This document shows positions 13,824-40,689 of a DNA stretch of 58,737 bases, one piece after another. The first letter of the stretch is position 1. Each line of letters begins with the position of its first letter. Where the stretch lies: assembly GCA_015058875.1 (NCBI GenBank), contig SVBN01000008.1, positions 1 to 58,737 of the forward strand. Reading direction: 5' to 3'. The DNA is from Erysipelotrichaceae bacterium (GTDB taxonomy: Bacteria > Bacillota_I > Bacilli_A > Erysipelotrichales > Erysipelotrichaceae). The notes beneath the pieces are model-generated. The model did no database searches. It was not told the origin of the DNA and saw only the letters and a list, made by a program, of their open reading frames with translations. Made by a program: the position numbers and the translations under genes.

Positions 13824-13828
13824 CGAGA
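13824..13828. repeat. CGAGA pentamer, left junction of the island
   Basis: CGAGA immediately precedes the first TGTAAATG end. The same pentamer is at 24665-24669, 32186-32190 and 40685-40689, always exactly between element ends or between an end and the chromosome, as expected for a 5-bp target-site duplication. Confidence 0.75.
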
Positions 13829-13965
13829 TGTAAATGTACAAAACAACTTGGCCTATAACAAAATAAATTAGCGTATAAGGCTATTTCAATACAAAGCCAG
13901 GAATACAAAACAATTTGGCGTATAGCGAAAAGACTCTGAAGTGCATCGACAACTTGATTTTGCCC

Positions 13966-13989
13966 AAACAGCATTTATTGCTGTTTTTT
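13966..13989 (+). terminator. Terminator in the left end of element 1
   Basis: AACAGCA/TGCTGTT stem with a 5-nt loop and a T-run (13984-13989). It would stop outside transcription from entering the cargo. Same structure at 32326-32349. Confidence 0.65.
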
Positions 13990-14027
13990 ATTATTTTCAC
14001 GTAAAAAAGTATAACTACTTAACCTAG

Positions 14028-14058
14028 ATAAAAAGACTCACAATCGCTAAATTGTGAG
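14028..14058 (-). terminator. Second terminator in the left end of element 1
   Basis: CTCACAAT (14037-14044) pairs with ATTGTGAG (14051-14058); the minus strand continues with TCTTTTT. Same structure at 32388-32418. Confidence 0.6.
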
Positions 14059-14157
14059 CCTTATCCTAGCGTATGTGAGATCATATAACAATTTTACCGA
14101 GCCAACGCGCTTCATTATCTATTATTCTCATTAACGGCATTCGATATTGAGGACGTA

Positions 14158-15783
14158 TTGCAATATGTGAAAGAAGAATATCCTTCACAGCAAGAGTTTG
14201 AGAAATATGCCTCAGCGCATGGTTATAGGATTGTTTCCGCCTATCATAGACATGCAATCACTTTAAAACATGAAATATGCGAATATGAGTTTGTTACGTC
14301 GCCAGAGGCTTTTATGAGTGGCTGGGAGTGTCCTGATTGTGATTCATCTTTAGGCGACAACGAATTATTTGCAAAGATATTCAGCAGAACTTACGGAGAG
14401 GATTATTCACTTGGGTCAGAATTCATTAGTTTAAAAAAGCCGATGCTGGTCACTCACAAAATCTGCGGGAAGAAATACAGCGTCAAGGCCTCTTCGTTAT
14501 TGAACGAAAGGATTACTTGTAACTGTTCCAGGCGTAATGAATCGCTGACAAAAGCGAATTACTACATGCAGAAATATCCCGACTGGAAATTAATCAAGTT
14601 TGATGCCATTGGAGCACCTGTGGCTATGTTACATATTCCATGCGGTCACACCAGAACCTTTCATAGTTTTGAAGGATTTATGCGAAGTCCGTCTTGTAAG
14701 ATCTGTGATTCGGAAAAGTACATCAGAATAGATTATTTACAAAGATTGCAGGAGATCCTTGGTAATAGGATCATAATGCTGGATTCATTTATAAATGCCG
14801 ATACGGAATTGCGCTTTCATTGCGTGGTTTGCGGAAACACATTCAAAAGGACACCGCGGAAAATGATTGAAAGATGTTTCTGCCCAAAATGTTCTTCAAG
14901 AATAAGCCTTTCCTACGAAAGCTTAAGAGATGTTGTGTCGGCTTTTTCAGGAGGCAGATACATAATCACAAATAAGAACAACAATACCGGTAAATATACC
15001 GTTAAAGACATTCAATCCGGATCCTCTAAGAGCATGAATCGTAATCAGATCCTTCTTGAGGCTATTGCTTCAGTGTCATATGATCTTCCGGTAGAAAATA
15101 AGCAGGCTGTTTTAGAAAAGGTAACTGCCGCTAGCATTAAAATAATAGAACACCTCGAGAAATTGCGTCAGACATCAGGATATTTCTACTATGAAGATAT
15201 TCATAGCTGCCTTACAGAATGTGTGTTATCACAAGATGCGTTCTTGCTGGGGTGGATAAATATACTGTCAATTAGCAATTACTGTTATTGTGCACAGGAG
15301 ACATGGGGACTATATGTTTTCTCAGACACAGTTGTTGATGTCAATTACGATAAAATGATTGCTGAAAGATATATTTTTGATGATCAAGGATGCAGAATCG
15401 GCTATTTCGCTGGGACCAAATTTCTTCAGGATATAGGATGTTGTTCAGATGAGAGTAATAGTGTATGTGTTGTAACAAACCGTGTACAAGGAAATGAAAC
15501 AAATATTGTTCTTGGCGGCATCACCTACAAAATCAAAGCTTCCAAGCATGGCATGGTTTCAGATGATAATTATGGTTATAAGGTGATTCTTGGATGGGTA
15601 CAGAGCAAGTACTTTCAAAAAGACAGAAACACACTGGAGGCGATAGGTGCTTTCATAAAGGAACACAACCTTGCAAGAGATGGATTTGACTCAGAATTAA
15701 AAACATATCCAGTCAAAGCTAAGACGAGAGTAAATGGTTTGTTGGATGATATTGATAAGTTGAAATGTTGTCCTGAACAATAG
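14158..15783 (+). CDS. Multi-zinc-finger protein with AbiEi-like C-terminal region
   Basis: A 541-residue cargo protein. Residues 1-270 hold four treble-clef-like repeats with Cys/His pairs: HEIC...WECPDC, HKICGKK...NCS, HIPCGH...CKICD and FHCVVCGNTF...CPKC, similar to probable zinc-ribbon domains found in prokaryotic accessory genes. Residues 340-520 (WGLYVFSD, RIGYFAGTKFLQDIG, VCVVTNRVQGN, GITYKIKASKHG) resemble the core of AbiEi/DUF6088-type antitoxin proteins. The start is a TTG with GAGG 5 bp upstream. It sits just inside the left element end, a common defence-cargo position. A nucleic-acid-binding defence or antitoxin role is inferred; it lacks TniQ motifs, so it is not obviously a target selector. 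Confidence 0.6.
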   Translation: MQYVKEEYPSQQEFEKYASAHGYRIVSAYHRHAITLKHEICEYEFVTSPEAFMSGWECPDCDSSLGDNELFAKIFSRTYGEDYSLGSEFISLKKPMLVTHKICGKKYSVKASSLLNERITCNCSRRNESLTKANYYMQKYPDWKLIKFDAIGAPVAMLHIPCGHTRTFHSFEGFMRSPSCKICDSEKYIRIDYLQRLQEILGNRIIMLDSFINADTELRFHCVVCGNTFKRTPRKMIERCFCPKCSSRISLSYESLRDVVSAFSGGRYIITNKNNNTGKYTVKDIQSGSSKSMNRNQILLEAIASVSYDLPVENKQAVLEKVTAASIKIIEHLEKLRQTSGYFYYEDIHSCLTECVLSQDAFLLGWINILSISNYCYCAQETWGLYVFSDTVVDVNYDKMIAERYIFDDQGCRIGYFAGTKFLQDIGCCSDESNSVCVVTNRVQGNETNIVLGGITYKIKASKHGMVSDDNYGYKVILGWVQSKYFQKDRNTLEAIGAFIKEHNLARDGFDSELKTYPVKAKTRVNGLLDDIDKLKCCPEQ

Positions 15784-15784
15784 T

Positions 15785-15834
15785 TGTATTATGGATCGCT
15801 CTTTCACCTTTCATCGGATTATAAAACAGCGGGT
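15785..15834 (+). repeat. 50-bp direct repeat, left copy
   Basis: Begins TGTATTATGGATCG and ends AACAGCGGGT. 48 of 50 bases match 21161-21210. The copies flank the ABC/two-component cassette. Here the terminator hairpin that the repeat starts is cut off; at the right copy it is complete. Confidence 0.85.
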
Positions 15835-15908
15835 TCAGGTAGATGCTCATAAGAAAGTTTTGAAACAAAAACTGATTCAGGCATCTGGCTGACGGGGTTG
15901 GAAAATGA

Positions 15909-15953
15909 AAAGACGGAGTGTTACATACAATTTGTGTGTAACACTCCGTCTTT
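15909..15953 (-). terminator. Strong terminator of the ABC/two-component operon
   Basis: A 17-bp perfect stem, AAAGACGGAGTGTTACA (15909-15925) with its complement at 15937-15953. The minus strand continues TTTTC. Confidence 0.85.
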
Positions 15954-15984
15954 AACTGCGCATCTAATCTCCCGAAAAAGATTA

Positions 15985-18633
15985 TTAATCACTCGCTTCC
16001 CTTATCCGATCGACAATCGTTTGTCTTGAAAGCGCCTTGTAAGAGAAAAGCGGAATGACGGCACCAAGAGCGATAAAAACAGGAAGTGCAAGAACTGCTG
16101 GCAGAAGGGTAAAGTGCGCCGAGAAGAACCAAAACATTTTTTCCAGTACTCCCGAAAGCAATGGCTCAAGGACCGCGCTCAAAAGAATTGCAAGAAACGC
16201 TGATCCTACTGCATAGAACAATCCTTCCCAAACAAGCATAACTCTGAGCTGCTGCCCGGTCATCCCGACAGCCTGAAGCATGGCAAGTTCTCTTTTGCGT
16301 GAAACAATGCCAGTGATTACGGCGTTCACGAAATTGATAATCCCTACGAGTCCTACGATGAAGCTCAGTACTGTGCCCAGCAGCAGAAACATACCTCGGA
16401 AACTGTTAAACTCCCTTTCGTAGGATGTTCGGCTCTCGTAATTATATTCCTGGCCTAATCCCTTGGTGTAATTGGAAAGAAATGTCTCCATGTCTGAGTT
16501 TGCTTCCTCGATCGTATCAAAGGCATAGTACACAGGCTCCTGATTAGCCGCGTATTTCGTAAAGGTTCCTGCATTCATCACGTACGCATCGCCCATGATC
16601 GCCCGAATGGACAGTGTATAAGGAAGCGTGACTACGGCCGCAACCTCAAAATCTATATCAGTATACTTTGCTGCCCGTCTGGACCATGACAGCCCGAAGT
16701 CCTCATTTTCCCCAAATACATGCCCTGTCTGCGGGTCATAGTATTCAAACGCTTCCACGTACCGGAGGGTTATTGTATCGCCCACATGAACCCATGACGA
16801 CCCGTCGATGACCTTTCCATAGTCGTCCATCTCGCTTATCGCCGCAATATAATGCCCGTCGGACTTGAAAAGAGGAGCCAGGTCACCTTCGATTACCGTC
16901 ATTCGGTTGAGAAGATATTCTTCTGCGCCGTAAATCATAGTATTTATGGCTCGTGTTCCAACATCGACCGGTTCACCATTTTCAAGAAGCGACTGACCGA
17001 ATTCCGGATAGTAGTGACTGAAATAGGAAGTGATATGTTCTTCCGGTACAATCTCTTCGAAGTTGTTATATTGGAAGTACATTCTTCCGCCATCCCTGAT
17101 GCCGCCCTGATCCCAAATCGCCTCGAGAGCGGCCTGCGATACGCCGTCAGCACCCTGGCCCGCACGGAAATAGCTGTTGGGAGCGACAAGAAAATCGCAG
17201 GCAGTTTTGTCGCGCAGATATTTATTCATGTCAAAACCGTTGGTGAAGAATACCGTCATGGACAAAAGCACAACCGCCAGCGCGAGAGACAGCACGGTTA
17301 TGATCGTCTTCGAGCGGCTGCGGCCCAGGTTTGCCCAGGCCATGGCGCAGGGAGATACCCTGAGTGCGCGGCGGCGTGTTTTCCTGTATTCTGATCCCTC
17401 CGTGTAACGCACCGCCTCCACCGGACTGACCTTCGCGGCCAGACGCCCGGGAAGCGCACAGGAGATCAGCACAGTTACGAGTGAGAATACTGCCGCGCCG
17501 AGGAAAAGCAGCGGGTGGGCGGATACTTTAGCAACACCGCCGATACTCAGATTGTTGAGAACGACAGGTGCCAGAAGGCCGCCCGTCAGCCAGCCAAGCA
17601 GCAGTCCAAGCGGAATCCCGATCAGGCTGAGCGCCAGCGCCTGCAGCCAGATCACTCGCCGGAGCTGTCGGCCTGTAGTGCCGACCGTTTTCAGCAGGCC
17701 ATAGAATCGAACATCTCCTGCGACTGAAATACGAAAGACGTTGTAAATCACCAAATAACCGGTCAGAAGGATCACGGCGAGCATCAGTGCAAGAATAAAG
17801 ACAGTTTCTCCGTCCATTCCCGCCGATAATTGAGCACCAGTGTAGCCCCAGTTTACGCCCGTATCGATATAATTGTTCTTTGCGGCGTCGCTGCTTTGAT
17901 ATCCGTGTCGTTCCAGTATTTCCACTAAGTCGGCTTCAATATGCCGGGAGCTTTTCAGCATGACATCAAGCCCCCAGGAGCCAACGCCGTTTTCAAGACC
18001 AACATAAGGTGAGGCGTACCCCAACTCCTGGAGCACTTTATCCACCCGGCTTTCAGGAATTAGAATAATGTGTGCCGAAGCAACCGCGTCACTTTCCCAC
18101 CATCCGGAGAGCTCAAAAGTCTGTTCGGTAGTGACACCACCAATTTCAAGGGTAACGGTGAACGATGTACCAATTTTGGGCTCGATACCAAGGTACTGCA
18201 ATACCGCGAGGTCGGTTGCAGCCTCATTGCTGCCCTCGGTGGGAGACGTACCATTCGTAGGAACGCAATAAGACCACTTTGCAGCCGTCTGATCCCAATG
18301 GTGGATCTCCACATTCGTCTTGGCAAAGCAATCATCTACCGCACCGCCGAGGAAACGATGCAGGCCATATGCTTTGATCAGTGGATCGGATTTCAATTCA
18401 TTATACTGATCCGGCGTCAGCCTCTTGAAGCTTCCGTGTGTATATCCGCCAACCATGCGGAAATTCGATTCCTGGAAGGACGCGTTGATAGACATTGTTA
18501 TGGTGAACAGCGCCGTGAACAACAGCGCCGTCAGGGCGATGGCGAGGATCGCGGCTGCGTTGCGTGTTTTGTTCGCCCGCAGGCTTTTCCAGGCAAGCCG
18601 ACGGACGCAGGCATTGTTTTTCACTCTTACCAT
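15985..18633 (-). CDS. FtsX-type ABC transporter permease
   Basis: An 882-residue permease of the MacB/FtsX superfamily. One membrane helix near residues 20-45 is followed by an extracellular domain, three helices with the FtsX signature (about 275-410), a fourth helix starting a second half (about 440-465), a second large extracellular domain and three more helices (about 750-875). This duplicated eight-helix design belongs to exporters and peptide-resistance systems rather than nutrient importers. ATG 18633 has CGGAGG; an upstream GTG is less likely. It is encoded with its ATPase, kinase and response regulator, a set usual for antimicrobial-peptide sensing and resistance. Confidence 0.88.
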   Translation of the reverse strand: MVRVKNNACVRRLAWKSLRANKTRNAAAILAIALTALLFTALFTITMSINASFQESNFRMVGGYTHGSFKRLTPDQYNELKSDPLIKAYGLHRFLGGAVDDCFAKTNVEIHHWDQTAAKWSYCVPTNGTSPTEGSNEAATDLAVLQYLGIEPKIGTSFTVTLEIGGVTTEQTFELSGWWESDAVASAHIILIPESRVDKVLQELGYASPYVGLENGVGSWGLDVMLKSSRHIEADLVEILERHGYQSSDAAKNNYIDTGVNWGYTGAQLSAGMDGETVFILALMLAVILLTGYLVIYNVFRISVAGDVRFYGLLKTVGTTGRQLRRVIWLQALALSLIGIPLGLLLGWLTGGLLAPVVLNNLSIGGVAKVSAHPLLFLGAAVFSLVTVLISCALPGRLAAKVSPVEAVRYTEGSEYRKTRRRALRVSPCAMAWANLGRSRSKTIITVLSLALAVVLLSMTVFFTNGFDMNKYLRDKTACDFLVAPNSYFRAGQGADGVSQAALEAIWDQGGIRDGGRMYFQYNNFEEIVPEEHITSYFSHYYPEFGQSLLENGEPVDVGTRAINTMIYGAEEYLLNRMTVIEGDLAPLFKSDGHYIAAISEMDDYGKVIDGSSWVHVGDTITLRYVEAFEYYDPQTGHVFGENEDFGLSWSRRAAKYTDIDFEVAAVVTLPYTLSIRAIMGDAYVMNAGTFTKYAANQEPVYYAFDTIEEANSDMETFLSNYTKGLGQEYNYESRTSYEREFNSFRGMFLLLGTVLSFIVGLVGIINFVNAVITGIVSRKRELAMLQAVGMTGQQLRVMLVWEGLFYAVGSAFLAILLSAVLEPLLSGVLEKMFWFFSAHFTLLPAVLALPVFIALGAVIPLFSYKALSRQTIVDRIREASD

Positions 18634-18638
18634 GCCGT

Positions 18639-19310
18639 TCACCTCCGGGAGAGTACACGCCCGTCCTCGATGCGAATGATCCGGTCGGCCAACTGTGCCA
18701 GTTCCTCGTTATGGGTAATCATAACAATAGTCTGGGAAAAGCGTTCACTGGTGATCTTCAAAAGCCCCATCACATCCTGGCTTGTTCTGGAATCCAGGTT
18801 GCCGGTGGGTTCATCGGCTAAAACGATTGCGGGCTTTGTGGCAAGCGCGCGTGCAATCGCGACGCGCTGCTGCTGACCGCCTGAGAGGGTGTTCGGCAGA
18901 TTGGACAGTTTGTTCTCCAAGCCCAGTGTGCGGATGATCTGATCGATATATGCCTTGTCGATCTTTCCTCCATCCAATTCAACCGGCAAGACAATATTCT
19001 CCCAGACGCTCAGTACTGGAACAAGATTGTAGCTTTGAAAAACAAAGCCTATTTTGCGGCGACGAAAGATCGTCAGTTCTTCGTCTTTCAGCGTTGACAG
19101 CTCTCGGCCATCCACTGTTACAGTTCCGGATGTCGGGCGATCTAACCCTCCAAGCATGTGAAGGAGCGTCGATTTCCCGGAACCGGACGATCCGACGATT
19201 GCAACGAACTCTCCGCTTTCTACGCACAGATCCACTCCATCCAGGGCGCGAACTTCCGCTTCACCGGAGCCGTAGGTCTTGCGCAGATCCTTTGTTTCCA
19301 AAATCGCCAT
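18639..19310 (-). CDS. ABC transporter ATP-binding protein (MacB/LolD type)
   Basis: A 223-residue ATPase with Walker A GSSGSGKST (about 40-48), Q-loop GFVFQSYNLVP, signature LSGGQQQR, Walker B IVLADEPTGNLDS and the switch histidine in MITHNEEL. The NLVP and EPTGNLDS forms are typical of partners of FtsX-like permeases. GGAGG stands before ATG 19310. The permease start follows 5 bp after its stop, so translation is coupled. With the upstream kinase and regulator it forms one minus-strand operon. Confidence 0.93.
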   Translation of the reverse strand: MAILETKDLRKTYGSGEAEVRALDGVDLCVESGEFVAIVGSSGSGKSTLLHMLGGLDRPTSGTVTVDGRELSTLKDEELTIFRRRKIGFVFQSYNLVPVLSVWENIVLPVELDGGKIDKAYIDQIIRTLGLENKLSNLPNTLSGGQQQRVAIARALATKPAIVLADEPTGNLDSRTSQDVMGLLKITSERFSQTIVMITHNEELAQLADRIIRIEDGRVLSRR

Positions 19311-19416
19311 AAGTATGCCTCCATGGAAAAAGTCTGTATTGCCTTCTTTGACAATACAGACTTTAGCATAGGATTCTTTCCAGGATCTTTCTAAAATCTA
19401 ACAGTTTTGAAAGAAT

Positions 19417-20322
19417 TCATTCTCGCGGCAGAAAGATGGAGAACGTCGAACCTTTTTCTGGTTGGCTCTCAAGTTTGATATACCCGCCTTGACCGGATAT
19501 GATTTCCCTCGCCAGATACAAGCCAAGCCCAACACCTTTTTCCTCTGCCACAGAGGGGGATCGATAAAAGCGCTGGAAAATCTTTGTTTGCTCCTCTTCC
19601 GGAATGCCTCTGCCATTGTCCGTAATGACTATGCGGCAAAACATATCATACTCTGAAACGTGAAGAGAGACTTCACCTCCAGCTGGCGTGTACTTTATGG
19701 CGTTGTCGATCAGATTTCCAATAGCTTCCTCTGTCCACTTGGCATCAAATACCGCAAATGCCTCGGTCGGCTCCTGCTTGAGCGAAATGTGTTTTTGCTG
19801 TGCTTTGGGAAGATACTGCCTGATCGTTTCCGCAAGCATGGGCTCAACTTTGGCACGCTTAGTCTGAAACTGATAGATACCAGTTTCCAAACGGGATGTT
19901 TTGACCAGCGCATCAATCAGCGTTTTGAGTTTTTCGGATTGCCCGATCAAAGATGTAATTAGCAGTCTAGCATCTTCGGAAGTTTCCTGCTCATCCAAAA
20001 GCTGAGCATAGAGAAGGATGTTGGCCATCGGTGTTTTTGTCTGATGAGAAATATCCGCTACCAGAGCTTCGATTTTCGCTTTCTGTTCACGTAAATTGCG
20101 TGCGGAGATGGCGGAGCTTTTCAAGTAGTGCGAAAGCTTTGCTTCCATAGAAGAGAGCATACTCTCGTCCCATACGCTTTCCGAAAAGTCTCCCTTTATG
20201 GCTTCGTCGAGCATGGCATCAATTCTTTTCAGCGTTTTCCTTGTGCTGTGCCGATCAAAAATCACCACGAACAATGACGCCAGAATCGCAACAGCGGCAG
20301 TGATGAATAACCAAATCTGCAT
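19417..20322 (-). CDS. Sensor histidine kinase, short N-terminus
   Basis: A 301-residue kinase. One hydrophobic helix (about 4-24) leads straight into a linker and the H-box DISHQTKTP, followed by N-box NLIDNAIKYTPAGG, G1 DNGRGIPEEE, F-box FQRFYRS and G2 GVGLGLYLA. There is almost no extracellular domain, so, as in intramembrane-sensing kinases of BceS type, the signal may come through the adjacent ABC permease. Its start lies one base after the stop of the response regulator gene. Confidence 0.9.
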   Translation of the reverse strand: MQIWLFITAAVAILASLFVVIFDRHSTRKTLKRIDAMLDEAIKGDFSESVWDESMLSSMEAKLSHYLKSSAISARNLREQKAKIEALVADISHQTKTPMANILLYAQLLDEQETSEDARLLITSLIGQSEKLKTLIDALVKTSRLETGIYQFQTKRAKVEPMLAETIRQYLPKAQQKHISLKQEPTEAFAVFDAKWTEEAIGNLIDNAIKYTPAGGEVSLHVSEYDMFCRIVITDNGRGIPEEEQTKIFQRFYRSPSVAEEKGVGLGLYLAREIISGQGGYIKLESQPEKGSTFSIFLPRE

Positions 20323-20323
20323 A

Positions 20324-21001
20324 TCACTTCATCGCCCAGGTATACCCGAGTCCATACACCGTCTTCAGATATTTCGGTTTGGACGGATCATCCTCCAACT
20401 TGTCACGCAGCCGTTTCATTGTGACGGAAAGCGCATTTTCATCGACATATTCCGCTCCGTCACTCCAGATCCGATCCACAAGCACGGGACGGCTCACGGT
20501 CATTCCTCGGTTATCCAAAAGGATGCGCAATAGCTTTTGCTCCGCTTTGCTCAGTTCGATCTGCATACCTGATCTCCGAAAAACCATGTGGTCAAAATCG
20601 AATAGAAAAGGATCTGACTGATAGATGGAAGACTCCCGCTTTTGCTCTCTGCGTAGCTGAGTATTTACGCGCGCTCGCAGAATAGCGAGGGAGAAGGGCT
20701 TTGTAATATAATCGTCCGCGCCAGATTCAAGCCCGACCACAACATCCGTTTCCATATCGTTTGCAGTCAGCAGGATAACAGGAATAGAACAGCGATTGGA
20801 TCGCAGCTCACGCAGATAGTCTAGTCCGTTGCCATCTGGAAGATTGATGTCCAGAATGAGGAGTGCATAATCTGAAATCGAAACTTTCCGTACTTCTTTT
20901 AGTGACCGACACCGATCAATCTGCAATTCATCACTCTTCAAGGCTAGACAAATACCTTGGCCTAGTGCCAAATCATCTTCTAAAAGAAGCACTTTATCCA
21001 T
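20324..21001 (-). CDS. OmpR-family response regulator
   Basis: A 225-residue regulator. The receiver has the acidic pair in LLLEDD, the phospho-acceptor Asp in LILDINLPDGNG, T in LLTANDMETD and K in YITKPFS. The C-terminal winged helix reads LSKAEQKLLRILLDNRG and ends with the YLKTVYGLGYTW strand. ATG 21001 with GGAGGTGAGG is preferred to the slightly longer frame. It probably induces the downstream ABC operon under peptide or envelope stress. Confidence 0.92.
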   Translation of the reverse strand: MDKVLLLEDDLALGQGICLALKSDELQIDRCRSLKEVRKVSISDYALLILDINLPDGNGLDYLRELRSNRCSIPVILLTANDMETDVVVGLESGADDYITKPFSLAILRARVNTQLRREQKRESSIYQSDPFLFDFDHMVFRRSGMQIELSKAEQKLLRILLDNRGMTVSRPVLVDRIWSDGAEYVDENALSVTMKRLRDKLEDDPSKPKYLKTVYGLGYTWAMK

Positions 21002-21160
21002 TTGCCTCACCTCCATATTGTTTTCTCGCGTCGCTAGTTTACCTCATAGATTCACAAATTTCAATGGCTCGTTTAGACTGCAGATTCTATGGCGATGGTA
21101 TTATCTTCGCAACGGAAACTGTGCGAACAAGAAAGAATGAGATTCACATTATGTGTTTTT

Positions 21161-21210
21161 TGTATTATGGATCGTTCTTTCACCTTTTATCGGATTATAA
21201 AACAGCGGGT
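21161..21210 (+). repeat. 50-bp direct repeat, right copy
   Basis: Matches 15785-15834 at 48 of 50 positions. The 150 bp before it carry a short open frame without a start or recognisable product. Confidence 0.85.
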
Positions 21211-21232
21211 AAGACTAAGACCCGCCGTTTTT
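21205..21232. terminator. Terminator at the right edge of the ABC cassette
   Basis: GCGGGT (21205-21210) pairs with ACCCGC (21220-21225), followed by CGTTTTT. Before the cassette arrived this was probably the terminator of the zinc-finger gene at 14158-15783. Confidence 0.65.
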
Positions 21233-21485
21233 ACTGTGTGATCTTCCAGGCTATGCTGCTTAAAGCACCGCAGATATTTTCAAGTTCCATATCTGAAAGA
21301 GGACTATCTGATACGTAGTACTTCTTGTTCTTAAACACTACAGGCACAAAACTGTTGCTGACGTTTGTATTCCCATGGCACTCTTCAGCAGGAATAATCC
21401 TGTAATATCTGATAACGGGTTGTTCCGTAATACCTCCGCCAAATATACGGTCGATAACGGTAGATGTTTTATATGGTTTTTCCAT
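21231..21485 (-). CDS. Small hypothetical protein, possibly a 5'-truncated gene
   Basis: An 84-residue frame ending at the terminator. The second half (IRYYRIIPAEECHGNTNV, FVPVVFKNKKYYVSD) looks like coding sequence, but the start at 21485 has no ribosome site and a stop lies seven codons upstream, so it may be the tail of a lost gene. No family recognised. Confidence 0.35.
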   Translation of the reverse strand: MEKPYKTSTVIDRIFGGGITEQPVIRYYRIIPAEECHGNTNVSNSFVPVVFKNKKYYVSDSPLSDMELENICGALSSIAWKITQ

Positions 21486-21590
21486 GTAATTACTATAATG
21501 GCAGAACTATTTGCATACAAGAATACTTGTACAAAAATAATTATGAATGTTGGATTGATCTACTATATGTAGGAATAAATTCAAGAGATG

Positions 21591-32979: not shown

Positions 32980-33012
32980 TACAATGACATTGTAAAAAGA
33001 ACGGAAACGTTC
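32980..33012 (+). promoter_or_regulatory. Two operator-like palindromes before the element 3 operon
   Basis: TACAATG-A-CATTGTA (32980-32994) and GAACG-GAAA-CGTTC (32999-33012) lie 18-50 bp before the first gene. They look like binding sites for dimeric repressors of GntR or LacI kind; no such gene is in the element. Confidence 0.4.
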
Positions 33013-33029
33013 AGAGAAAGGGGTACAAC

Positions 33030-33848
33030 ATGAAACTGATCGTAACTGCTGATGATTTTGCCATCACATTTGCCGGTGCAGACGGTGTCATTCATGCCGC
33101 AACATACGGATGTCTGACAGAAACCGGCCTGTTCTCCAATTCTCCTGCTGCAGCATATGGAGTCAAACGTCTGCTGAGCGAACGGCCTGACTTCTGTCTG
33201 GGACAGGATATTAATCTTGTCACAGGAAAGCCGCTGAGTGATCCGAAGCTGATTCCAAGCCTTGTAACAGAAGATGGAAAATTCCGCACATCCGGTTCAC
33301 ACAGACTGGAAGACAAAACAAATCCCAATCACATTCCTTATGAGGAAGCATTATTGGAAACAGAAACACAGATCCTGAAGTTCATCGAACTTGCAGGAAA
33401 GAAACCGGAATATCTGAACGGACATTCCTACGGATGTGAGAACACACAGAAAGCATTCAGGGATATGGCCGTCAAATATGAGATCCCGATACTGTCTGAT
33501 GTTCTTGCAAAATACAACCTCCCCGGAGGTCTTGAAACCGCACCTTGGAACAATGTTTCAGCAATGGATTCAACAGGAAAATGGGACTTTTCTCCGGCAA
33601 CCCAGCTGGACAGGGATCCGCTGAAGTTCTTCACAGAAAACAAGCTGGAATATCTCACAAAAGCATTGGAAGAAAACGGAATCGCACATATCCACACCCA
33701 TACGGGATTTGTGGACAGAGAACTTATCCGTCTGTCATCTTTCAATCTGATTCGTATGATGGAAGCGGACTTTGTTACTTCACCTGAACTGAATAACTGG
33801 ATCAAAGAAAACAATGTAGAGCTGATCTCGGTAAGAGATCTGCTGTAA
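33030..33848 (+). CDS. YdjC/ChbG-family carbohydrate deacetylase homologue
   Basis: A 272-residue YdjC-fold protein. The catalytic pair is present in VTADDFAITFAGADGVIHAA, and LIPSLVTEDGKF and HIHTHTGFVDREL follow the family order. Where ChbG has a metal-binding histidine in IGMHFVL, this protein reads LGQDINL, an Asp; the later SHHHVH motif is NGHSYG. The metal site is thus altered and substrate may differ from chito-oligosaccharides. AAAGGGG ribosome site. First gene of the operon with a PTS IIC and an esterase; a role in removing acetyl groups from an imported sugar is likely. Confidence 0.82.
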   Translation: MKLIVTADDFAITFAGADGVIHAATYGCLTETGLFSNSPAAAYGVKRLLSERPDFCLGQDINLVTGKPLSDPKLIPSLVTEDGKFRTSGSHRLEDKTNPNHIPYEEALLETETQILKFIELAGKKPEYLNGHSYGCENTQKAFRDMAVKYEIPILSDVLAKYNLPGGLETAPWNNVSAMDSTGKWDFSPATQLDRDPLKFFTENKLEYLTKALEENGIAHIHTHTGFVDRELIRLSSFNLIRMMEADFVTSPELNNWIKENNVELISVRDLL

Positions 33849-33858
33849 GGAGGAAATC

Positions 33859-35139
33859 ATGAGTAAGATTTTAGATAATATGACAGTCTTCATGCAGGAA
33901 AAACTGGACCCGCTGTTCAGCCGTTTCGCTGCTCTTCCGTTTATTCAGGCAATGTCGAGTTCTTTTGCGGCATTTATGCCTCTGACCATGATCGGCGGTC
34001 TTGCAACCCTGTTGATCACACTTTCCTGGGGTCCGTATGTTGCATTCCTTCAGGCAACACACCTCGACCAGATATTCAATCTCATTTACAATCTGACACT
34101 GAACATGATGGGTGTCTGGACCGCAGCAGCGATTGGTTATTACTACTCCGTTCAGAAAGGCATGAAAAAGTATGCTATGGTCAATATCTTTGTCACAATG
34201 TTCGCATACTTCCTGCTTGCGCCATATACAGCCAGCGATGCAGGCAATGTCCTAAACATGGGATACCTTGGAGCCAAAGGTATTGTTGCGGCAATGGTCG
34301 TCGGATTTGTTGTGGTGCATGTCTATAAGTTCTGTGTTGAGAAAAACATCTATATCAAAATGCCTGAACAGGTTCCTGTATATCTCCAGGAATCATTCTC
34401 CGGTATTATTCCTGCAGGTTTCATCGGTATTCTGTTTGCGGCTATTGAACTGATGGTAGAAAGAGCAGGCTTTGTAAATGCAATCGATGCATTCTATACA
34501 TTGATCGCCGCACCCCTGACAAATATTGGTACTAGTTTCTGGGGGCTCTTCATTCTCTTCGCCCTTCCGAGTATTCTCTGGTTCTTCGGAATTCATGGCG
34601 GGAATGCCACACAGGCAATCATTCCGCCGCTGTTGATGCCACTTGCAATCGAAAACGCTACTGCATGGGCTGCCGGACAGCCGCTGCCTCATGACTTTAC
34701 AATGGGCACAATGGCACTCATGAGCGGTGGCGGATTGATCTGCTGGACGATCCTAATGCTGCAGAGCAAATCGCCGAGATTTAAGACACTGGGCAGAATG
34801 ACAGTGATCACATCTCTCTTCGGACTGTCTGAACCGATCAACTTCGGTCTTCCTCTGGTACTGAATCCTTACCTGTTCATCCCGCAGATCATTCCCCTTC
34901 ACTTTGTCTTGACCTATATCGTTACAAAACTCGGCATCCTCCCTCCTGCTCACTGCATGTATGTATGGGGTGTTCCGATGTTCATGAGCGGTTATCTCGC
35001 CGCAGGATTTGCCGGAGTTGTCTGGCAGCTTGTCCTGACTGTTGTAGACTACTTCTGGTTCCTGCCTTTCTTCAAAGCATATGAAAAGAAAGAACTGGAA
35101 GAAGAAGCCGCAACACTGCAGGCAGAATCAGGCAACTGA
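33859..35139 (+). CDS. PTS lactose/cellobiose-family IIC permease
   Basis: A 426-residue permease with about 10 membrane segments. ILWFFGIHGGNATQ and LFGLSEPINFGLPLVLNPYL are the family's FGIHG and (L)FG..EP.nFG.P substrate loops. The start is ATG 33859 with AAGGAGG, 10 bp after the YdjC gene. No IIA or IIB gene exists in element 3, so it must borrow them, perhaps from the element 2 operon or elsewhere. Neighbours suggest an acetylated or amino sugar oligomer as substrate. Confidence 0.9.
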   Translation: MSKILDNMTVFMQEKLDPLFSRFAALPFIQAMSSSFAAFMPLTMIGGLATLLITLSWGPYVAFLQATHLDQIFNLIYNLTLNMMGVWTAAAIGYYYSVQKGMKKYAMVNIFVTMFAYFLLAPYTASDAGNVLNMGYLGAKGIVAAMVVGFVVVHVYKFCVEKNIYIKMPEQVPVYLQESFSGIIPAGFIGILFAAIELMVERAGFVNAIDAFYTLIAAPLTNIGTSFWGLFILFALPSILWFFGIHGGNATQAIIPPLLMPLAIENATAWAAGQPLPHDFTMGTMALMSGGGLICWTILMLQSKSPRFKTLGRMTVITSLFGLSEPINFGLPLVLNPYLFIPQIIPLHFVLTYIVTKLGILPPAHCMYVWGVPMFMSGYLAAGFAGVVWQLVLTVVDYFWFLPFFKAYEKKELEEEAATLQAESGN

Positions 35140-35146
35140 ATTCATC

Positions 35147-35173
35147 AAGGAGAACCGGCAAGGTTCTCCTTTA
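35147..35173 (+). terminator. Hairpin between the PTS IIC and esterase genes
   Basis: AAGGAGAACC (35147-35156) pairs with GGTTCTCCTT (35162-35171). The U-tail is weak, so it may only reduce downstream expression or protect the upstream mRNA end. Confidence 0.45.
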
Positions 35174-35199
35174 TACTAAAAAAAAGGAGGATTTGCTAT

Positions 35200-36258
35200 A
35201 TGGAACTAAACGCCTTAATGGAGCGCAGAGCCCGGATGAATCAGAAGTTCGGAAAAGAACTGTTCGGTGCAGTTGAAATCTTTGAAGACGTCGTTAATTA
35301 TGACATTGAAGATGAACTGAAGTTGTATCATCTTCAGACAGCGATTGAAAAAGCAGATGGTGAAAATCAGGAACAGCTGGTAAAGGACTTCTATAGCCTT
35401 TACACATCTATGAAGCCGAAAGAAAACCCGCTGGAACGGATTTACCTGTGGTCGGAAGGCAATATGCCCAGGAACACGGAGTATACGGATAACTCCGATT
35501 ATAAAAGAAAACATAATCCTGATTTCAGACCGTATATGTACGCATTGACAGTAGATGAATCTGTTCAGCCCAAAGGCGCAGTCGTGGTTGTGGCAGGCGG
35601 AGATCACGGCAGATGTGTTATTCCGGAAGGATATCAGACATGTCTGGATTTGAATGCCCTCGGCTATCAATGTTTCCTGCTGTTAAACCGCGTCAATCAT
35701 AATCCATGGTCCAACGAAGAAAGCGGAGCAGATACGGCCAGAGCGATCCGCATCATCCGTGCCAATGCAGAACAATACCGTATTTCACCTGAACGTGTCG
35801 GTTTTGCAGGGTTTTCCAACGGCGGTCTGACCGGGGATAACTGCATCCGGTATTTTTCCGGAACGCAGACAGTGAAAGATCATTTTCCTGATTATATTCC
35901 GGATGAACTTGATGCATATTACGGTGCTCCGGATGCATACTGCTGTATTTACGGGCCTCGCTTCAAAATGGATCTGATGACCCCGGAGAAAGAAGATGTT
36001 GTCGACTACGACAGGGTAGTTTATCCTCCGACATTTATTGCTGTTGGAAGAGAAGACTTTGCGATGAACAACCTGTATCACTATCTGAATGAGCTTGTTG
36101 AACACAATGTACCGGTAGAAGTGCATACATTTGCCGGCGTTCCGCATGGCATTGCCGGCTTCAAAATTCTAAGCGGTGGGATCGAACAATATCCGAACTT
36201 CAATCTCTGGCTTCCGCTTGCGGATGCATTCATGCAGGATGCATGGAAGAACAGATAA
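35200..36258 (+). CDS. Alpha/beta-hydrolase, carbohydrate esterase-like
   Basis: A 352-residue hydrolase with an N-terminal helical part (1-100) and an alpha/beta core. VVVVAGGDHGR is the oxyanion region, GFAGFSNGGLTGDN holds the nucleophile serine (GxSxG, about residue 208), VGREDF and GVPHGI give the acid and histidine. No signal peptide, so it acts in the cytoplasm on imported material. AAAAGGAGG before ATG 35200. With YdjC homologues and a PTS permease it probably removes acetyl or other acyl groups from a sugar. Confidence 0.8.
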   Translation: MELNALMERRARMNQKFGKELFGAVEIFEDVVNYDIEDELKLYHLQTAIEKADGENQEQLVKDFYSLYTSMKPKENPLERIYLWSEGNMPRNTEYTDNSDYKRKHNPDFRPYMYALTVDESVQPKGAVVVVAGGDHGRCVIPEGYQTCLDLNALGYQCFLLLNRVNHNPWSNEESGADTARAIRIIRANAEQYRISPERVGFAGFSNGGLTGDNCIRYFSGTQTVKDHFPDYIPDELDAYYGAPDAYCCIYGPRFKMDLMTPEKEDVVDYDRVVYPPTFIAVGREDFAMNNLYHYLNELVEHNVPVEVHTFAGVPHGIAGFKILSGGIEQYPNFNLWLPLADAFMQDAWKNR

Positions 36259-36389
36259 GAATATCATTCTTACAAATTTTAACTGGAAGCAGAATACCAA
36301 TGAATTACGCAAGGTATTCTGTTTTATTTATCCGGCATTTCCTTTTTTCAATGTTAATTCCGCATGATGAATGTGATATTGTAGTGCTG

Positions 36390-38267
36390 ATGAATGAACT
36401 GCAGAAAGAAATCTTCCATTATATTTCTCGTTATGAAACTGTATCGGAGTCGCAGGCAGCTTTTCATTTTCATATTAACAACCGGCAGCTGAAGAGAGAA
36501 CTCGCGCAGATCAACTCAGAACTTTCCGATACAGCAAAAATTGTACAGAACGGCACAACACTGATCACTCTGAAGGTTTTTGATTCTCTTCAGTTTCAGA
36601 CACTTCGTGACAAAATACTGTATGGTGCTGAAGAGAAAAACGTCCAGGCAGAAAGAATCGAGCAAATCATATATACATTCCTGAACAATGATACCTGGGT
36701 CAGGATCGATGATCTGGCGGCTGATTTCTATGTCTCCCGACGTCAGATCAGCAAAGACATGACCATCGTCAGAGATTATCTGTCCCAGTATGATCTTTCC
36801 ATTGAGACAATACCCCACCGCGGCATGCGGCTGACTGGTAAGGAAATCAGCAGAAGGATCATGCTGGCACACCTTTATACCAATCTGCAGGCAAGCACTA
36901 TTAAAATAGATTATTCTTTCATCACCGATCCAGCGATCCTGAATATTATCAGAAATGTGCTGCGCACAGTGTTCCATGAAGAAAACATAAGTATGACAGA
37001 TTATTATGGTGTGAATCTGATGTTTCACCTGTATGCATCAGTTATTCGAATGAAAAACGGTCACAGCATACAGAGAGAAGAAATTGATTATCCTGTCAGC
37101 AAGCAGGCAAAAAGAATTGCTTTGCAACTGCTGCGGAAAATCAATGACAGCACAGAAATCAATATAACAGAAGGTGAAATACTGTATCTTGCCAGTCATT
37201 GTCACGCCAAAACCAGTTCTTTCCGTATTACCAGCAATGCGGACAATGAAACCATTGCGGTAATACACCGGTTTATGAGAGCTATTGACGAAAAATATCA
37301 TACTGCGTTTGATTCAGATACAGAACTGATCGACCGTCTGCTGCAGCACTTCATTCCTCTGCGGACACGGATCCATTACGGGTATCAGATGAAAAATGTA
37401 ATGCTGAATGAAATACGCTCCGGTTATCCTTTTGAGATGTGCCTCGTACAGGATCAGCAGGATATTCTGGAGCAGTTCCTGGGTGAGAAACTCAGTGAAG
37501 ATGAAGTTTCACTGATCGCACTGAATCTTGCCCTGTCCTTCCGGAAGAATGTTCTTCCGGGATCCTCCGGCAGGTTCCTGCTTGTTTCCAGCGCTAACGA
37601 TACCTCTACTCAATTCTTACGCCAGCAGATCATTGAAATGTTGCATATCAGCGAGCAGAACCTTGATGTATGCAACAGATGGAATCTCAGTTACATGGAC
37701 CTGTCCCAATACCGTCTCATTCTCTCATCAGTTCCGCTGTACCTGAATGTCAATGTGCCTGTGTTCCGGTTTTCTTTGACAATGACAGAAGCAGAAAAGG
37801 AAATTGTCAGAAATATCCTGAACGGTTTCCGTGGAAATTCATTGCTCAGCCTATTATGTCCAAGAGATTTATTTTACGGTCTGACACATTATCAGGACAT
37901 TGAAGAAGCTATTGCCGCAATGATCGACAACGTCGGAAACTACCGTCAGATCCCGGAACATTTCAAAGAAGACATTCTTTCCGGCATGCTGGAATACAAT
38001 CCCGTGATTGCAGAAAACGTTTTGTTTCTCCATACAAAAGAAGTATGCCAGCAGGAAAACTGGGCTGCAATTGCTATCAATGACAGAAAACTGGATTGGA
38101 ACGGAAATGATATAAATATCATCATACTCTGTTCCCTGAAGCCGGACTCCTATGAAGATCTGTTCCTTCTGCTGGATGCGATCAGCAGGCTGTCTTCCAA
38201 CCCCAAAGCTATAGAAGACCTTGTCAGGCATCCTGATTACCGTACATTCTGTGAGTGGATCTATTGA
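36390..38267 (+). CDS. PRD-containing regulator of BglG/MtlR type
   Basis: About 625 residues. Helix-turn-helix units near the N-terminus (VSESQAAFHFHINNRQLKRE; RIDDLAADFYVSRRQISKDM) precede two PRD domains (about 190-400; LSEDEVSLIALNLALSF), a IIB-like region (FLLVSSANDTST) and a C-terminal IIA-like region with VLFLHTKEVC, the probable phospho-histidine. It should control the element 3 sugar genes by PTS phosphorylation. The start is uncertain: ATG 36390 has no strong ribosome site, and the frame stays open upstream to 36243, overlapping the esterase gene. Confidence 0.82.
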   Translation: MNELQKEIFHYISRYETVSESQAAFHFHINNRQLKRELAQINSELSDTAKIVQNGTTLITLKVFDSLQFQTLRDKILYGAEEKNVQAERIEQIIYTFLNNDTWVRIDDLAADFYVSRRQISKDMTIVRDYLSQYDLSIETIPHRGMRLTGKEISRRIMLAHLYTNLQASTIKIDYSFITDPAILNIIRNVLRTVFHEENISMTDYYGVNLMFHLYASVIRMKNGHSIQREEIDYPVSKQAKRIALQLLRKINDSTEINITEGEILYLASHCHAKTSSFRITSNADNETIAVIHRFMRAIDEKYHTAFDSDTELIDRLLQHFIPLRTRIHYGYQMKNVMLNEIRSGYPFEMCLVQDQQDILEQFLGEKLSEDEVSLIALNLALSFRKNVLPGSSGRFLLVSSANDTSTQFLRQQIIEMLHISEQNLDVCNRWNLSYMDLSQYRLILSSVPLYLNVNVPVFRFSLTMTEAEKEIVRNILNGFRGNSLLSLLCPRDLFYGLTHYQDIEEAIAAMIDNVGNYRQIPEHFKEDILSGMLEYNPVIAENVLFLHTKEVCQQENWAAIAINDRKLDWNGNDINIIILCSLKPDSYEDLFLLLDAISRLSSNPKAIEDLVRHPDYRTFCEWIY

Positions 38268-38268
38268 A

Positions 38269-38295
38269 AACATACTGTTTCAAGTATGTTTTTTT
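38269..38295 (+). terminator. Terminator after the PRD regulator
   Basis: AACATACT (38269-38276) pairs with AGTATGTT (38283-38290), followed by TTTTT. Confidence 0.8.
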
Positions 38296-38381
38296 CATGT
38301 ACAGTTCGCGGTACCGACCAGAAAAACTGTTCATGGAATATAGCATAATAACTGCCATGATATAAGTATGGAGGTATCAAC

Positions 38382-39266
38382 ATGAAGCGACTTGTTTACC
38401 GGGCTGATGATATCGGCTATACACTGGCATTCGATCTTGGCGCATTCAAAGGCATGGATGAAGGAATCATTACATCTGCAGACGTCATGCTGGACAGTCC
38501 TCACACAGAAGAAGCACTGCTCTGGCTGAAGAAAAGGCCCTGGATCTCAGTCGGATGGCATCGTCATCTGTGGGAGTCCCCTGTTGCGCCAGCAGAAAAG
38601 ATCCCGCATATGGTCAACGAACAGGGACGGTTTATCTGGGGGCACAGACATCAGGAACTGATGAAGCAAGTTCCTTACGAAGAAGCATATACGGAATTCC
38701 GGGCAGAAGTCGAGCGCTGCATCGCAGTACTCGGAAAAGCACCGGATACGGCTTCTGTCAGACTGAACGGATCGGAACTGGAAGATGCATTCCGGGATAT
38801 CTGTGATGAGTATGGTATTATCTATGGTTACTACTATGCGGATTTCATGGGAAGAAAGATGGAACCGAAGGAGGAATACAGACATCTGAATTACCGGCAT
38901 TCAACACCCTTCCCCGAAGGAATTACAGGCAGAGATCTTTATGATCTTTCATTCTTCCCGAAATATAACCCGGAAGAACTGATCATGAACATCCGCTGGG
39001 ATGATGAGAACGTCATTTATCAGACAGGCGGTCATCCGGGATATCTCGATGATCATATACTGGCTGAATCTGCCTGCACGATTCATCGTCCGAAAGAACT
39101 GCTGGCAGCATTATCAGAAAAAGTAAAACAGTGGATCATCGACAATCATGTTGTACTGATCAATCAGCTGGATGTAATTTACGGTACAAATGAATACCAG
39201 AAACACCTGAAAGCTATCAATTCGCCATTATGGGCAGGGAATTTTAAGGAGGATGTAAAATTATGA
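38382..39266 (+). CDS. YdjC/ChbG-like protein, second homologue
   Basis: A 294-residue protein of the same fold. YRADDIGYTLAFDLGAFKGM begins like a YdjC protein, and ISVGWHRHLW keeps a histidine at the first metal position. The second metal motif (SHHH in ChbG) is VRLNGSELED, without histidine. TGGHPGYLDD near the end keeps a family-like HPG loop. GGAGGTATCAAC before ATG 38382. Its last codons overlap the next gene start by 4 bp (ATGA), so the two are co-translated. Substrate unknown. Confidence 0.75.
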   Translation: MKRLVYRADDIGYTLAFDLGAFKGMDEGIITSADVMLDSPHTEEALLWLKKRPWISVGWHRHLWESPVAPAEKIPHMVNEQGRFIWGHRHQELMKQVPYEEAYTEFRAEVERCIAVLGKAPDTASVRLNGSELEDAFRDICDEYGIIYGYYYADFMGRKMEPKEEYRHLNYRHSTPFPEGITGRDLYDLSFFPKYNPEELIMNIRWDDENVIYQTGGHPGYLDDHILAESACTIHRPKELLAALSEKVKQWIIDNHVVLINQLDVIYGTNEYQKHLKAINSPLWAGNFKEDVKL

Positions 39267-40075
39267 AACTGTTTATACAAGCTGATGATTACGGAATGAC
39301 AACCGGTGTTACCGATGGCATTGTTGCCTGCGGACGCGACGGTGTCCTGACTCAGACAGGTTTGTTCACCAACATGCCTTCAACGGAATATGCGGTCAAA
39401 CGTTATTTCAGTGAGATCCCGCATGTTCTGCTCGGTCAGGATCTGAATCTTTCTACAGGCAGTCCTGTGACTGATCCGAAACTGATTCCTACACTTGTTC
39501 AGGAAAATGGCGCATTCCTGACCAGCCGCATGCACCGGCAAAAGCAGTCTGAAGATCCGGATCATGTTTCCTATGAAGAAGCTTATCTGGAATATGACAA
39601 CCAGGTAAAACGGTTCATTGAACTTGTCGGTCATAAACCGGGTTATATCGGTGGTCATGCATGGCATAATGAGGTAACAAACCGTGCTCTGCAGGATATC
39701 ATTGACAAATATGAAGTCAGAGATGCTATGCGTTTGATTCCGATGGATTCGGAAAAGATCATTCGCATCGGTGGCTGGTCTAATCCAAAACAGCTTCCGG
39801 ACAAATCCTATGATTATAGTGTTATAACACAGCTGGAACAGGATCCGCTGGAAATGTTCATCACTCATAAACTGAAAGCATTGGAGGAATATGCAGATCA
39901 GGATGTACTGGCGATCATTCATACGCATGCAGGTTTCCTGGACAGAGACTTATACAAACTGTCATCGTTCAATGCTGTCCGTCCGATGGAAGCAGGTTTC
40001 CTTTGTTCCGCTGAATTAAAGGATTTCATCAAAAAACATCATATTGAACTCATCAATTACAGTTACTTTGACTGA
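39263..40075 (+). CDS. YdjC/ChbG-family carbohydrate deacetylase homologue, third
   Basis: A 270-residue protein clearly paralogous to 33030-33848: FIQADDYGMTTGVTDGIVAC, LLGQDLNLSTGSPVTDPKL, IPTLVQENGAF, IHTHAGFLDRDLYKLSSFN. It shares the His-to-Asp change at the first metal position (GQDLNL), and GGHAWHNE stands for the second. Translationally coupled to the preceding gene. The two GQD-type paralogues probably act on related substrates imported by the IIC permease. Confidence 0.82.
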   Translation: MKLFIQADDYGMTTGVTDGIVACGRDGVLTQTGLFTNMPSTEYAVKRYFSEIPHVLLGQDLNLSTGSPVTDPKLIPTLVQENGAFLTSRMHRQKQSEDPDHVSYEEAYLEYDNQVKRFIELVGHKPGYIGGHAWHNEVTNRALQDIIDKYEVRDAMRLIPMDSEKIIRIGGWSNPKQLPDKSYDYSVITQLEQDPLEMFITHKLKALEEYADQDVLAIIHTHAGFLDRDLYKLSSFNAVRPMEAGFLCSAELKDFIKKHHIELINYSYFD

Positions 40076-40083
40076 AACGAAAT

Positions 40084-40112
40084 ACGGGAAAGGATGAGCC
40101 TTTCCCGTTTCT
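40084..40112 (+). terminator. Terminator after the YdjC-type gene pair
   Basis: ACGGGAAAGG (40084-40093) pairs with CCTTTCCCGT (40099-40108), then TTC. Confidence 0.7.
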
Positions 40113-40223
40113 ATATTCTGATCATTATTCTGCTTATTTATATTATCTTCCTGATCCAGACATAAGAGCAGCGTCGTTTTCTGCATTTTTCATATTGCCA
40201 TAACGGTCTTATCATTCAGTATT

Positions 40224-40340
40224 TCACTGCTTATATTCTTTAATTTTCCTCGCCAACGTACTCCGGTTCATTTTCAGTTTCTTGCACATATACTGCTGCG
40301 TAATACCTCCTTCTTTCCATTGTCTCGTTAACTGGCATTT
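40224..40340 (-). pseudogene. C-terminal fragment of a Fis-type helix-turn-helix regulator
   Basis: Frame ending at 40224-40226 with QQYMCKKLKMNRSTLARKIK, the recognition-helix pattern of Fis-type domains at the end of sigma-54-type activators. A stop just upstream and no start show it is a remnant. Confidence 0.45.
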
Positions 40341-40420
40341 ATCTCATAAAACTATATCTACTAACGAAAAAAAGTCAAAGTAATCATGGGGGATTTTCCA
40401 ATACTAGTGCGGTTCATCTT

Positions 40421-40558
40421 CTACTCCTGTCCATCTACTGTCGGGAGTATTTCCATAACATCATCAAAAGAACAATTCAGCGCATTGCATATTTTCGCAA
40501 GTACGTCTACATTTACATTTTCGTTATTTTCAATTTTTCGAATCGTCGAATAGCTAAA
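40421..40558 (-). pseudogene. C-terminal fragment of an XRE-family regulator
   Basis: Frame FSYSTIRKIENNENVNVDVL, then AKICNALNCSFDDVMEILP, the second half of a Cro/C1 helix-turn-helix. It begins abruptly where the right-end repeat block of element 3 starts, so recombination at the end block has cut it. Confidence 0.6.
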
Positions 40559-40684
40559 GGTCATTTTGTTTTGTCGAAAATGATATTCTCGGTTTTACCG
40601 TTCTATTATCTATAGGCCATTTTGTTTTGTTGCAAAAAGGGCAGATTCGGTCTATCTTAGGACAAAATGTTTTGTATACCCACA
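40557..40684. repeat. Right-end block of element 3
   Basis: Three inward sites; terminal bases CCCACA (TGTGGG inward, against TGTGCG in elements 1 and 2). Otherwise close to the other two right-end blocks. Confidence 0.8.
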
Positions 40685-40689
40685 CGAGA
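40685..40689. repeat. CGAGA, right junction of the island
   Basis: Follows the ACA end of element 3 directly; chromosomal sequence resumes with ATTCAAAAGG. Confidence 0.75.

Follow-up and report, generated by a model that had tools for sequence, protein, structure and literature searches.

The locus described here lies in a 58,737-nt stretch of DNA (the window) that covers positions 1-58,737, forward strand, of contig SVBN01000008.1 in GCA_015058875.1, a draft genome of an Erysipelotrichaceae bacterium (3,027,130 bases in 125 contigs, completeness 93.15%, contamination 3.16%). In it, a tRNA-Gly(CCC) gene is followed by three adjacent segments, here called elements A, B and C, which stand head to tail in the same orientation and have a lower GC (guanine plus cytosine) content (43.0-45.5%) than the two flanks (50.8 and 49.2%). 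CGAGA is found at both outer borders and both inner junctions, and every element starts with TGTAAATG and finishes with CACA, i.e. A, B and C all have TGT...ACA tips flanked by a 5-bp target duplication. An earlier interpretation of the window from its letters (the sequence-only reading) had proposed four CGAGA junctions and three adjacent segments of about 10.8, 7.5 and 8.5 kb in one orientation, and both proposals are borne out, with junctions at 13824, 24665, 32186 and 40685 and lengths close to those given (Table 1). We consider the locus to be probably a stack of three cargo-only Tn7-like elements downstream of tRNA-Gly(CCC). Elements of this kind are known; a transposase-less triple stack is an unusual variant.

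Table 1 Features of the stack, its borders and the compared selector genes. Positions refer to the window unless another sequence is named.
Feature	Position	Strand	Details	Basis
tRNA-Gly(CCC)	13731..13803	+	presumed attachment gene	ARAGORN
CGAGA copy 1	13824..13828		outer left border	sequence
Element A	13829..24664	+	10,836 bp, GC 45.5%	
Left end A	13829..14068	+	TGTAAATG tip; inward sites 13838, 13858, 13905	
tniQ/tnsD remnant (A)	14090..15783	+	TniQ core missing; start about 14090 by eye	
A1 FtsX-type permease	15985-18642	-		Pfam
A1 ABC ATPase	18639-19310	-		Pfam
A1 histidine kinase	19417-20322	-		Pfam
A1 response regulator	20324-21016	-		Pfam
A2 tRNA-Ser(UGA) and tRNA-Met(CAU) pair	21590..21760	+		ARAGORN
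A3 restriction endonuclease and EcoRI-type adenine methyltransferase	21854..24283	-	endonuclease: GmrSD_N and HNH; PADLOC REase_II	
Right end A	24535..24664	-	inward sites 24535, 24591, 24636; tip ...GTATACGCACA	
CGAGA copy 2	24665..24669		A/B junction	sequence
Element B	24670..32185	+	7,516 bp, GC 43.5%	
Left end B	24670..24765	+	inward sites 24679, 24699, 24746	
Cargo B	25149..31537		GH1 glycosidase (-), PTS IIC (-), PTS IIB (-), PRD/PTS-IIA regulator (+), 235-aa protein (+)	
Right end B	32056..32185	-	inward sites 32056, 32112, 32157	
CGAGA copy 3	32186..32190		B/C junction	sequence
Element C	32191..40684	+	8,494 bp, GC 43.0%	
Left end C	32191..32428	+	two inward sites at up to 4 mismatches, 32200, 32265	
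Cargo C	33030..40075	+	YdjC-type protein, PTS IIC, alpha/beta hydrolase, PRD regulator, two more YdjC-type proteins	Pfam
Right end C	40555..40684	-	inward sites 40555, 40611, 40656; tip ...GTATACCCACA	
CGAGA copy 4	40685..40689		outer right border	sequence
Right-flank hairpin	40697..40721		10-bp stem	
Large TniQ/TnsD selector, G034	L040:11687-14086			
Large TniQ/TnsD selector, G041	L072:12354-14744			
Large TniQ/TnsD selector, G080	L055:8073-10130			

The sequence CGAGATGTAAATG occurs in the window as three exact copies, at the first three CGAGA positions (13824, 24665 and 32186), where plain arithmetic gives an expectation of about 0.002. At up to 3 mismatches the count does not exceed that of shuffled sequence (15 against a mean of 21), so the signal is carried by the exact copies only. 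The fourth CGAGA is followed by flank sequence, ATTCAAAAGG, as expected of an outer border. The block common to all borders is 7 bp long (CACGAGA) rather than 5, since by chance the last two bases of the left flank are CA. A site of about 20 bp derived from these ends, ACAAAACAANTTGKCCTATA, was scanned over the whole window and gave 17 sites at up to 4 mismatches, every one of them inside the six ends and pointing inward: 8 on the plus strand in left ends (A 3, B 3, C 2) and 9 on the minus strand in right ends (3 each). Exactly 5 mismatches added 5 scattered matches outside the ends, and ten first-order Markov control sequences had 1-5 matches each at up to 5 mismatches. Because the consensus was taken from these very ends, the evidence is the position and orientation of the sites, not their count. 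Measured from the tip inward, right-end sites start at about 10, 55 and 111 bp; in left ends A and B the starts are at about 10, 30 and 77 bp. The combination of several inward, unequally spaced sites with TGT/ACA tips and a 5-bp duplication is well established for Tn7-like elements. Tn7-like ends are described as arrays of TnsB sites in the available part of a large survey of Tn7 cargo (PMC8649781). The six ends have the layout of TnsB-bound Tn7-like ends, with the binding itself predicted, and A, B and C are almost certainly insertion units with ends of this type. The sequence-only suggestion that matching ends, termini and duplication fit TnsB-type transposition is thus supported for all three elements.

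The right ends (130 bp) are 96.2% (A-B), 95.4% (B-C) and 93.1% (A-C) identical, and the right tip of B reads as that of A. Left end A is a mosaic, with a tip identical to that of B at 35/36 positions and an interior that is 96.2% identical to C; hence, recombination between ends has probably taken place. A direct repeat of 173 bp spans both inner junctions, in which right end, CGAGA and left end follow each other (R-CGAGA-L), and is 94% identical between A/B and B/C. A terminator-like hairpin lies inside left end A (13966-13986), the same sequence is present in left end C, and by eye the left end of the Tn7-like element in genome G034, a relative of the same genus, has such a hairpin too; an inserted element may in this way supply a terminator to the site. 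A query made of right end A and left end B matched 4 places in the own genome at E ≤0.001, all in the stack, so that all matching ends lie at a single locus and one occupied site is known.

CGAGA copy 1 begins at the 21st base past the 3' end of tRNA-Gly(CCC) (13803 to 13824), in agreement with the single attachment site that the sequence-only reading had placed beside this gene. When the outer flanks are joined through CGAGA, the right-flank hairpin falls 33-57 nt after the tRNA. A tRNA-Gly(CCC) pattern (up to 3 mismatches) was found in 16/70 genomes of the genus; here and below, counts of 60, 70 and 315 genomes include the own genome and the collection holds one genome per species. At 10/15 of the relatives' tRNA-Gly(CCC) loci, the same script found a terminator-like hairpin within the first 95 nt (L026 contributes only 73 nt to this comparison). 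Insertion between tRNA-Gly(CCC) and its terminator is plausible, with the hairpin in a supporting role.

In the 26.9-kb stack, tblastn at E ≤0.05 found no match to tnsA, tnsB or tnsC with 17 queries (16 Tns proteins of G034, G010, G041 and G080 plus the protein P0001 of element A), a search that misses very diverged or short traces; the only matches were of TniQ type and fall on the C-terminal part of a TniQ/TnsD gene in A. The whole window likewise had no tnsA, tnsB or tnsC match with nine tblastn queries at E ≤1e-3. Matches to Mu-transpos_C, to a five-sequence TnsB profile and to the TniQ domain were all absent from the own genome. A TniB profile, applied as a test for TnsC, gave two weak matches outside the window (open frames of 868 and 474 aa) and is uninformative because 13/14 control genomes match it as well. 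With the genome only 93.15% complete, a helper could have been missed. The sequence-only description of the segments as Tn7-like elements therefore stands as regards ends, duplication, orientation and site and falls short on completeness, given that none of the three is complete; the TniQ/TnsD remnant was absent from that account. Among the 70 genus genomes, 7 matched the TnsB profile, strongly and over the full length in G034, G080, G076 and G010, partially in G035 and very weakly in G062 and G071; the partial TnsB of G035 and a second TnsB-like gene of G010 (C174) were left out of further comparison. Gene sets with TnsA, TnsB, TnsC and TniQ are present in G034, G010, G076 and G080. Across the genus and order, the Tn7-like gene sets examined (L040, L042, L053, L055 and L072, i.e. 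G034, G010, G076, G080 and G041) have differing gene orders, and that of G034 adjoins an anaerobic ribonucleotide reductase gene.

P0001 is the open frame at 14158-15783, with 541 codons from a TTG at 14158 in a frame that is open for 564. Self-matches aside, it is most similar to the TniQ of G034, over the C-terminal part of that protein, in the 70 genus genomes (E 4.3e-33, 26% identity; residues 301-751 of 799 by blastp) and to the TniQ of G041 in the 315 genomes of the order (E 2.1e-41). By eye, the residues just ahead of the TTG are still TniQ-like (FYRAN... against FYSAD...). The TniQ core comprises about 300 residues according to the available part of PMC10293859. The gene order in G034 is left-end repeats, tnsB, tnsC, tniQ, tnsA; a deletion that began inside the left end and ran into tniQ would leave the rest of tniQ in the place and direction of P0001. 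In A, identity with left end C extends to 14068, and the deletion joint falls between there and about 14090. P0001 has no Pfam family at E ≤0.001 (two weak sub-threshold ones only), no relative in genome_contigs and no match among solved structures, and its structure model is unusable (mean pLDDT, predicted local distance difference test, 33.8). A profile of P0001 and three TniQ proteins matches Tn7 TnsD (PDB 8glu, E 1.5e-4), but the match is confined to the TniQ core, which is missing from P0001, and was rejected as evidence; alignment A3 leaves out the TniQ proteins of G103 (L075), G010, G076, G084 and G245. On a speculative view, P0001 might act on its own, still attaching to the tRNA site but not recruiting TnsC, and thereby steer or block further insertions.

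A separate observation concerns the end of these selectors. Residues 394-524 of P0001 (window 15337-15729) match the PADLOC AbiEi model PDLC02236 (E 1.1e-13), as does the C-terminal part of TniQ/TnsD from G034 (1.4e-25), G041 (4.9e-24) and G080 (2.9e-28). The TniQ proteins of G076 and G010 have no PDLC02236 match (3/5 scanned match), and Pfam reports no AbiEi-like domain in the selector C-termini. A selector with an antitoxin-like domain at its end would merit attention.

Three separate insertions at the one site very probably underlie the stack. A TnsD-type selector would recognise the tRNA-Gly(CCC) gene, and a TnsB-type transposase would join each element just downstream at the same point, with a fresh copy of CGAGA at every insertion. 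The tRNA that serves for recognition stays intact, so that a newcomer would again enter beside it and move the older elements outward. The resulting order would be tRNA - CGAGA - A - CGAGA - B - CGAGA - C - CGAGA - old flank in a single orientation, with A as the presumably newest member and the stack order as the reverse of arrival. The right-end identities fit such an order of arrival without proving it. A would be a deletion derivative that keeps the C-terminal part of tniQ/tnsD, and B and C would consist of ends and cargo only. A complete element absent from the assembly is the most likely source of the transposase, acting in trans, and we lean towards such mobilisation rather than decay in place.

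Several points weigh against this account. Simple serial insertion does not predict the mosaic left end A. Target immunity is reported for prototypic Tn7 and several CRISPR-associated transposons (CASTs) in the available parts of PMC11406308 and PMC12452197 and would be expected to hinder the second and third insertion; repeated integration at one locus was seen in another study, as cited in the part of PMC12452197 available. Either immunity is weak here or it was bypassed by time, divergence or recombination. P0001 is 25-26% identical to its closest relatives, so that its target cannot be inferred from them. A terminator-like hairpin is lacking at 5/15 of the relatives' tRNA-Gly(CCC) loci, and the terminator scan lists the flank hairpin on the minus strand only, with a weak T tail in the direction of the tRNA. 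The comparative searches add to these points. Any match to one of five flanking proteins of the window is absent from all 15 of the relatives' tRNA-Gly(CCC) loci (up to 1.5 kb on each side), at which no empty, single- or double-occupied site was found, and the right flank has no relative at the stack border in the 70 genus genomes. Of 314 other genomes of the order, scored at two candidates each, none yielded a complete element with these ends, and the end pattern had no credible match in the 69 other genomes of the genus. An end search of genome_contigs gave 2 matches (L062 and L063), of which L062 is without sign of an element where examined, and one of viral_contigs gave 1 match, inside a phage gene, and none for two other patterns.

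The details of these searches are as follows. Right-flank DNA matches in 16/70 genus genomes including the own, mostly within the gene at 42809-43306, and the match nearest to the stack is 42 bp of G071 at window 40763-40804, in a region of 10.9 kb without a tRNA. None of the relatives' loci examined is syntenic with the window flanks. The end sequences had no match in 59 other genomes of relatives, and the end pattern had three 2-mismatch matches in the genus (G073, G035 and G086; G073 and G035 examined in part). The order-wide end search scored two candidates per genome, and its row for the own genome therefore shows 2 places as against 4 by the end query. The match in L062 is intergenic between glycolysis genes and within a short inverted repeat, and that in L063 belongs to an unrelated genus. 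The sequence-only reading had proposed looking for empty or partly filled sites near tRNA-Gly(CCC) and for complete tnsABC/tniQ elements with these ends; neither was found, the former at the 15 loci and by the flank searches, the latter in the genus, the order, genome_contigs and viral_contigs. Both comparisons yielded nothing because near relatives are lacking, and with one genome per species strain-level gain or loss cannot be addressed in this collection. As side observations, the gene at 42809-43306, about 2 kb right of the stack, is conserved in some genomes of the genus, with DNA identity of up to 82% and more than one match in several of them, and its neighbours hardly match; and L062:2518-2705, on a Lachnospiraceae contig, is by eye a short intergenic stretch bounded by the inverted repeat GCGTGCTTGTGTATGT / ACATACACAAGCACGC, perhaps a small non-coding mobile element.

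Other histories account for parts of these data. Each element may have arrived complete and lost its transposase genes in place, with no mobilisation in trans; the long open tniQ/tnsD remnant, in its expected place in A, and an 89-bp block near the right ends of A and B (93% identical) would suit such decay, whereas the lack of any tnsA, tnsB or tnsC match in the stack at the cut-off given above and the still readable state of all six ends argue against it, and we regard it as the less likely course. Also unlikely, as the origin of part or all of the tandem, is homologous recombination between repeats at the ends of elements that were inserted singly or existed as circular copies. The 173-bp repeat around each R-CGAGA-L junction offers a substrate for it and the B-type tip and C-type interior of left end A point to such exchange, but recombination alone creates neither the first insertion nor the shared exact tips, and right ends that differ by 3.8-6.9% were not recently copied from each other as a block. 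That an assembler joined single insertions of different strains is very improbable: the genome is an incomplete, slightly contaminated draft with long near-identical repeats at the joints, but single insertions give flank-CGAGA-L and R-CGAGA-flank and never R-CGAGA-L, which is what both inner junctions read, and about 6% of bases are different between the two. Islands of an integrase or other site-specific recombinase, to which the location beside a tRNA and the direct repeats at the borders might point, are hardly credible, given that CGAGA is separated from the tRNA by 20 bp instead of belonging to it, that ends with several inward sites and a TniQ/TnsD remnant are in keeping with Tn7-like elements and that the 19 stack proteins scanned with Pfam include no integrase match. 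The last two explanations are set aside on this junction, end and Pfam evidence.

Serial insertion of Tn7-like elements is our preferred reading, and the stack shares much with Tn7 and with Tn7-like elements that home by TnsD/TniQ: TGT/ACA tips, a 5-bp duplication, several inward TnsB-type sites per end, one orientation beside a conserved gene, a mixture of defence and metabolic cargo and TniQ/TnsD homology. Unlike them, A, B and C have no tnsA, tnsB, tnsC or TniQ core match, and although prototypic Tn7 has target immunity, the three are direct neighbours whose ends are nearly the same. In the Tn7 genomic islands that Parks and Peters are said to have described in 2007, foreign genes reportedly accumulate at a Tn7-type attachment site; here, by comparison, all three members are transposase-less. 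Internal-deletion or satellite transposons are mobilised in trans, having kept readable ends and lost the transposase. The elements of the stack differ from them in their kilobase-size cargo and in sharing one attachment site, as opposed to scattered small copies. Insertion just downstream of a tRNA gene is also described for tRNA-homing Tn7-like elements (CAST I-B2, I-D, V-K and related) in the available parts of PMC10293859 and PMC11406308. According to the same part of PMC10293859, which does not mention tRNA-Gly, CyCAST inserts around 30-33 nt after its tRNA-Leu site; the stack here begins 20-25 nt after tRNA-Gly. In contrast to the tRNA-homing CASTs, the stack has no transposition genes and no Cas match above cut-off among its 19 proteins scanned with Pfam, so that membership among the CASTs is not supported; CRISPR arrays and guides were not searched for. 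NCBIfam gave weak Cas9d/IscB matches to the HNH part of the protein at 21854-23104, far below cut-off. A literature search by titles and beginnings of abstracts, with key older work (Parks and Peters 2007, 2009; Hsieh and Peters 2022) outside its reach, recognised no transposase-less Tn7-like elements stacked at one site, and we do not claim the arrangement as undescribed.

The large survey of Tn7 cargo called elements by a TnsB match plus another Tn7 gene, as stated in its available part (PMC8649781), and cargo-only elements would escape it because a TnsB match is required. If such elements are common, the amount of gene transfer attributed to Tn7-type machinery is too low. Three stacked elements whose ends are nearly identical are also relevant to the question of target immunity in natural Tn7-like systems, and the end sequences define a search target for strains of the same species. 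A more speculative and rather doubtful idea is a Tn7 satellite family that forms an ordered array at one tRNA site, newest nearest the tRNA, with immunity absent or bypassed, in which the selector tail of A could steer or block insertions.

One tRNA site appears to have gathered several gene cargoes successively (phage defence, sugar uptake and sugar processing), and the Pfam and PADLOC assignments of A, B and C agree with the sequence-only statement that each segment carries different cargo (Table 1; PTS, phosphotransferase system). The 235-aa protein of B matches MucBP weakly and below threshold. In the right-hand part of B, an open frame of 75 codons (31718-31945) has, by eye, a good ribosome-binding site. 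The 89-bp block common to A (24362-24450) and B (30711-30799) reads as the last 26 codons of a gene without assigned identity and is perhaps a relic of a common parent. In A, a direct repeat of 51 bp (96% identical; 15784-15834 and 21160-21210) frames the permease/ABC/two-component module, which looks as if it had been inserted or duplicated inside the element.

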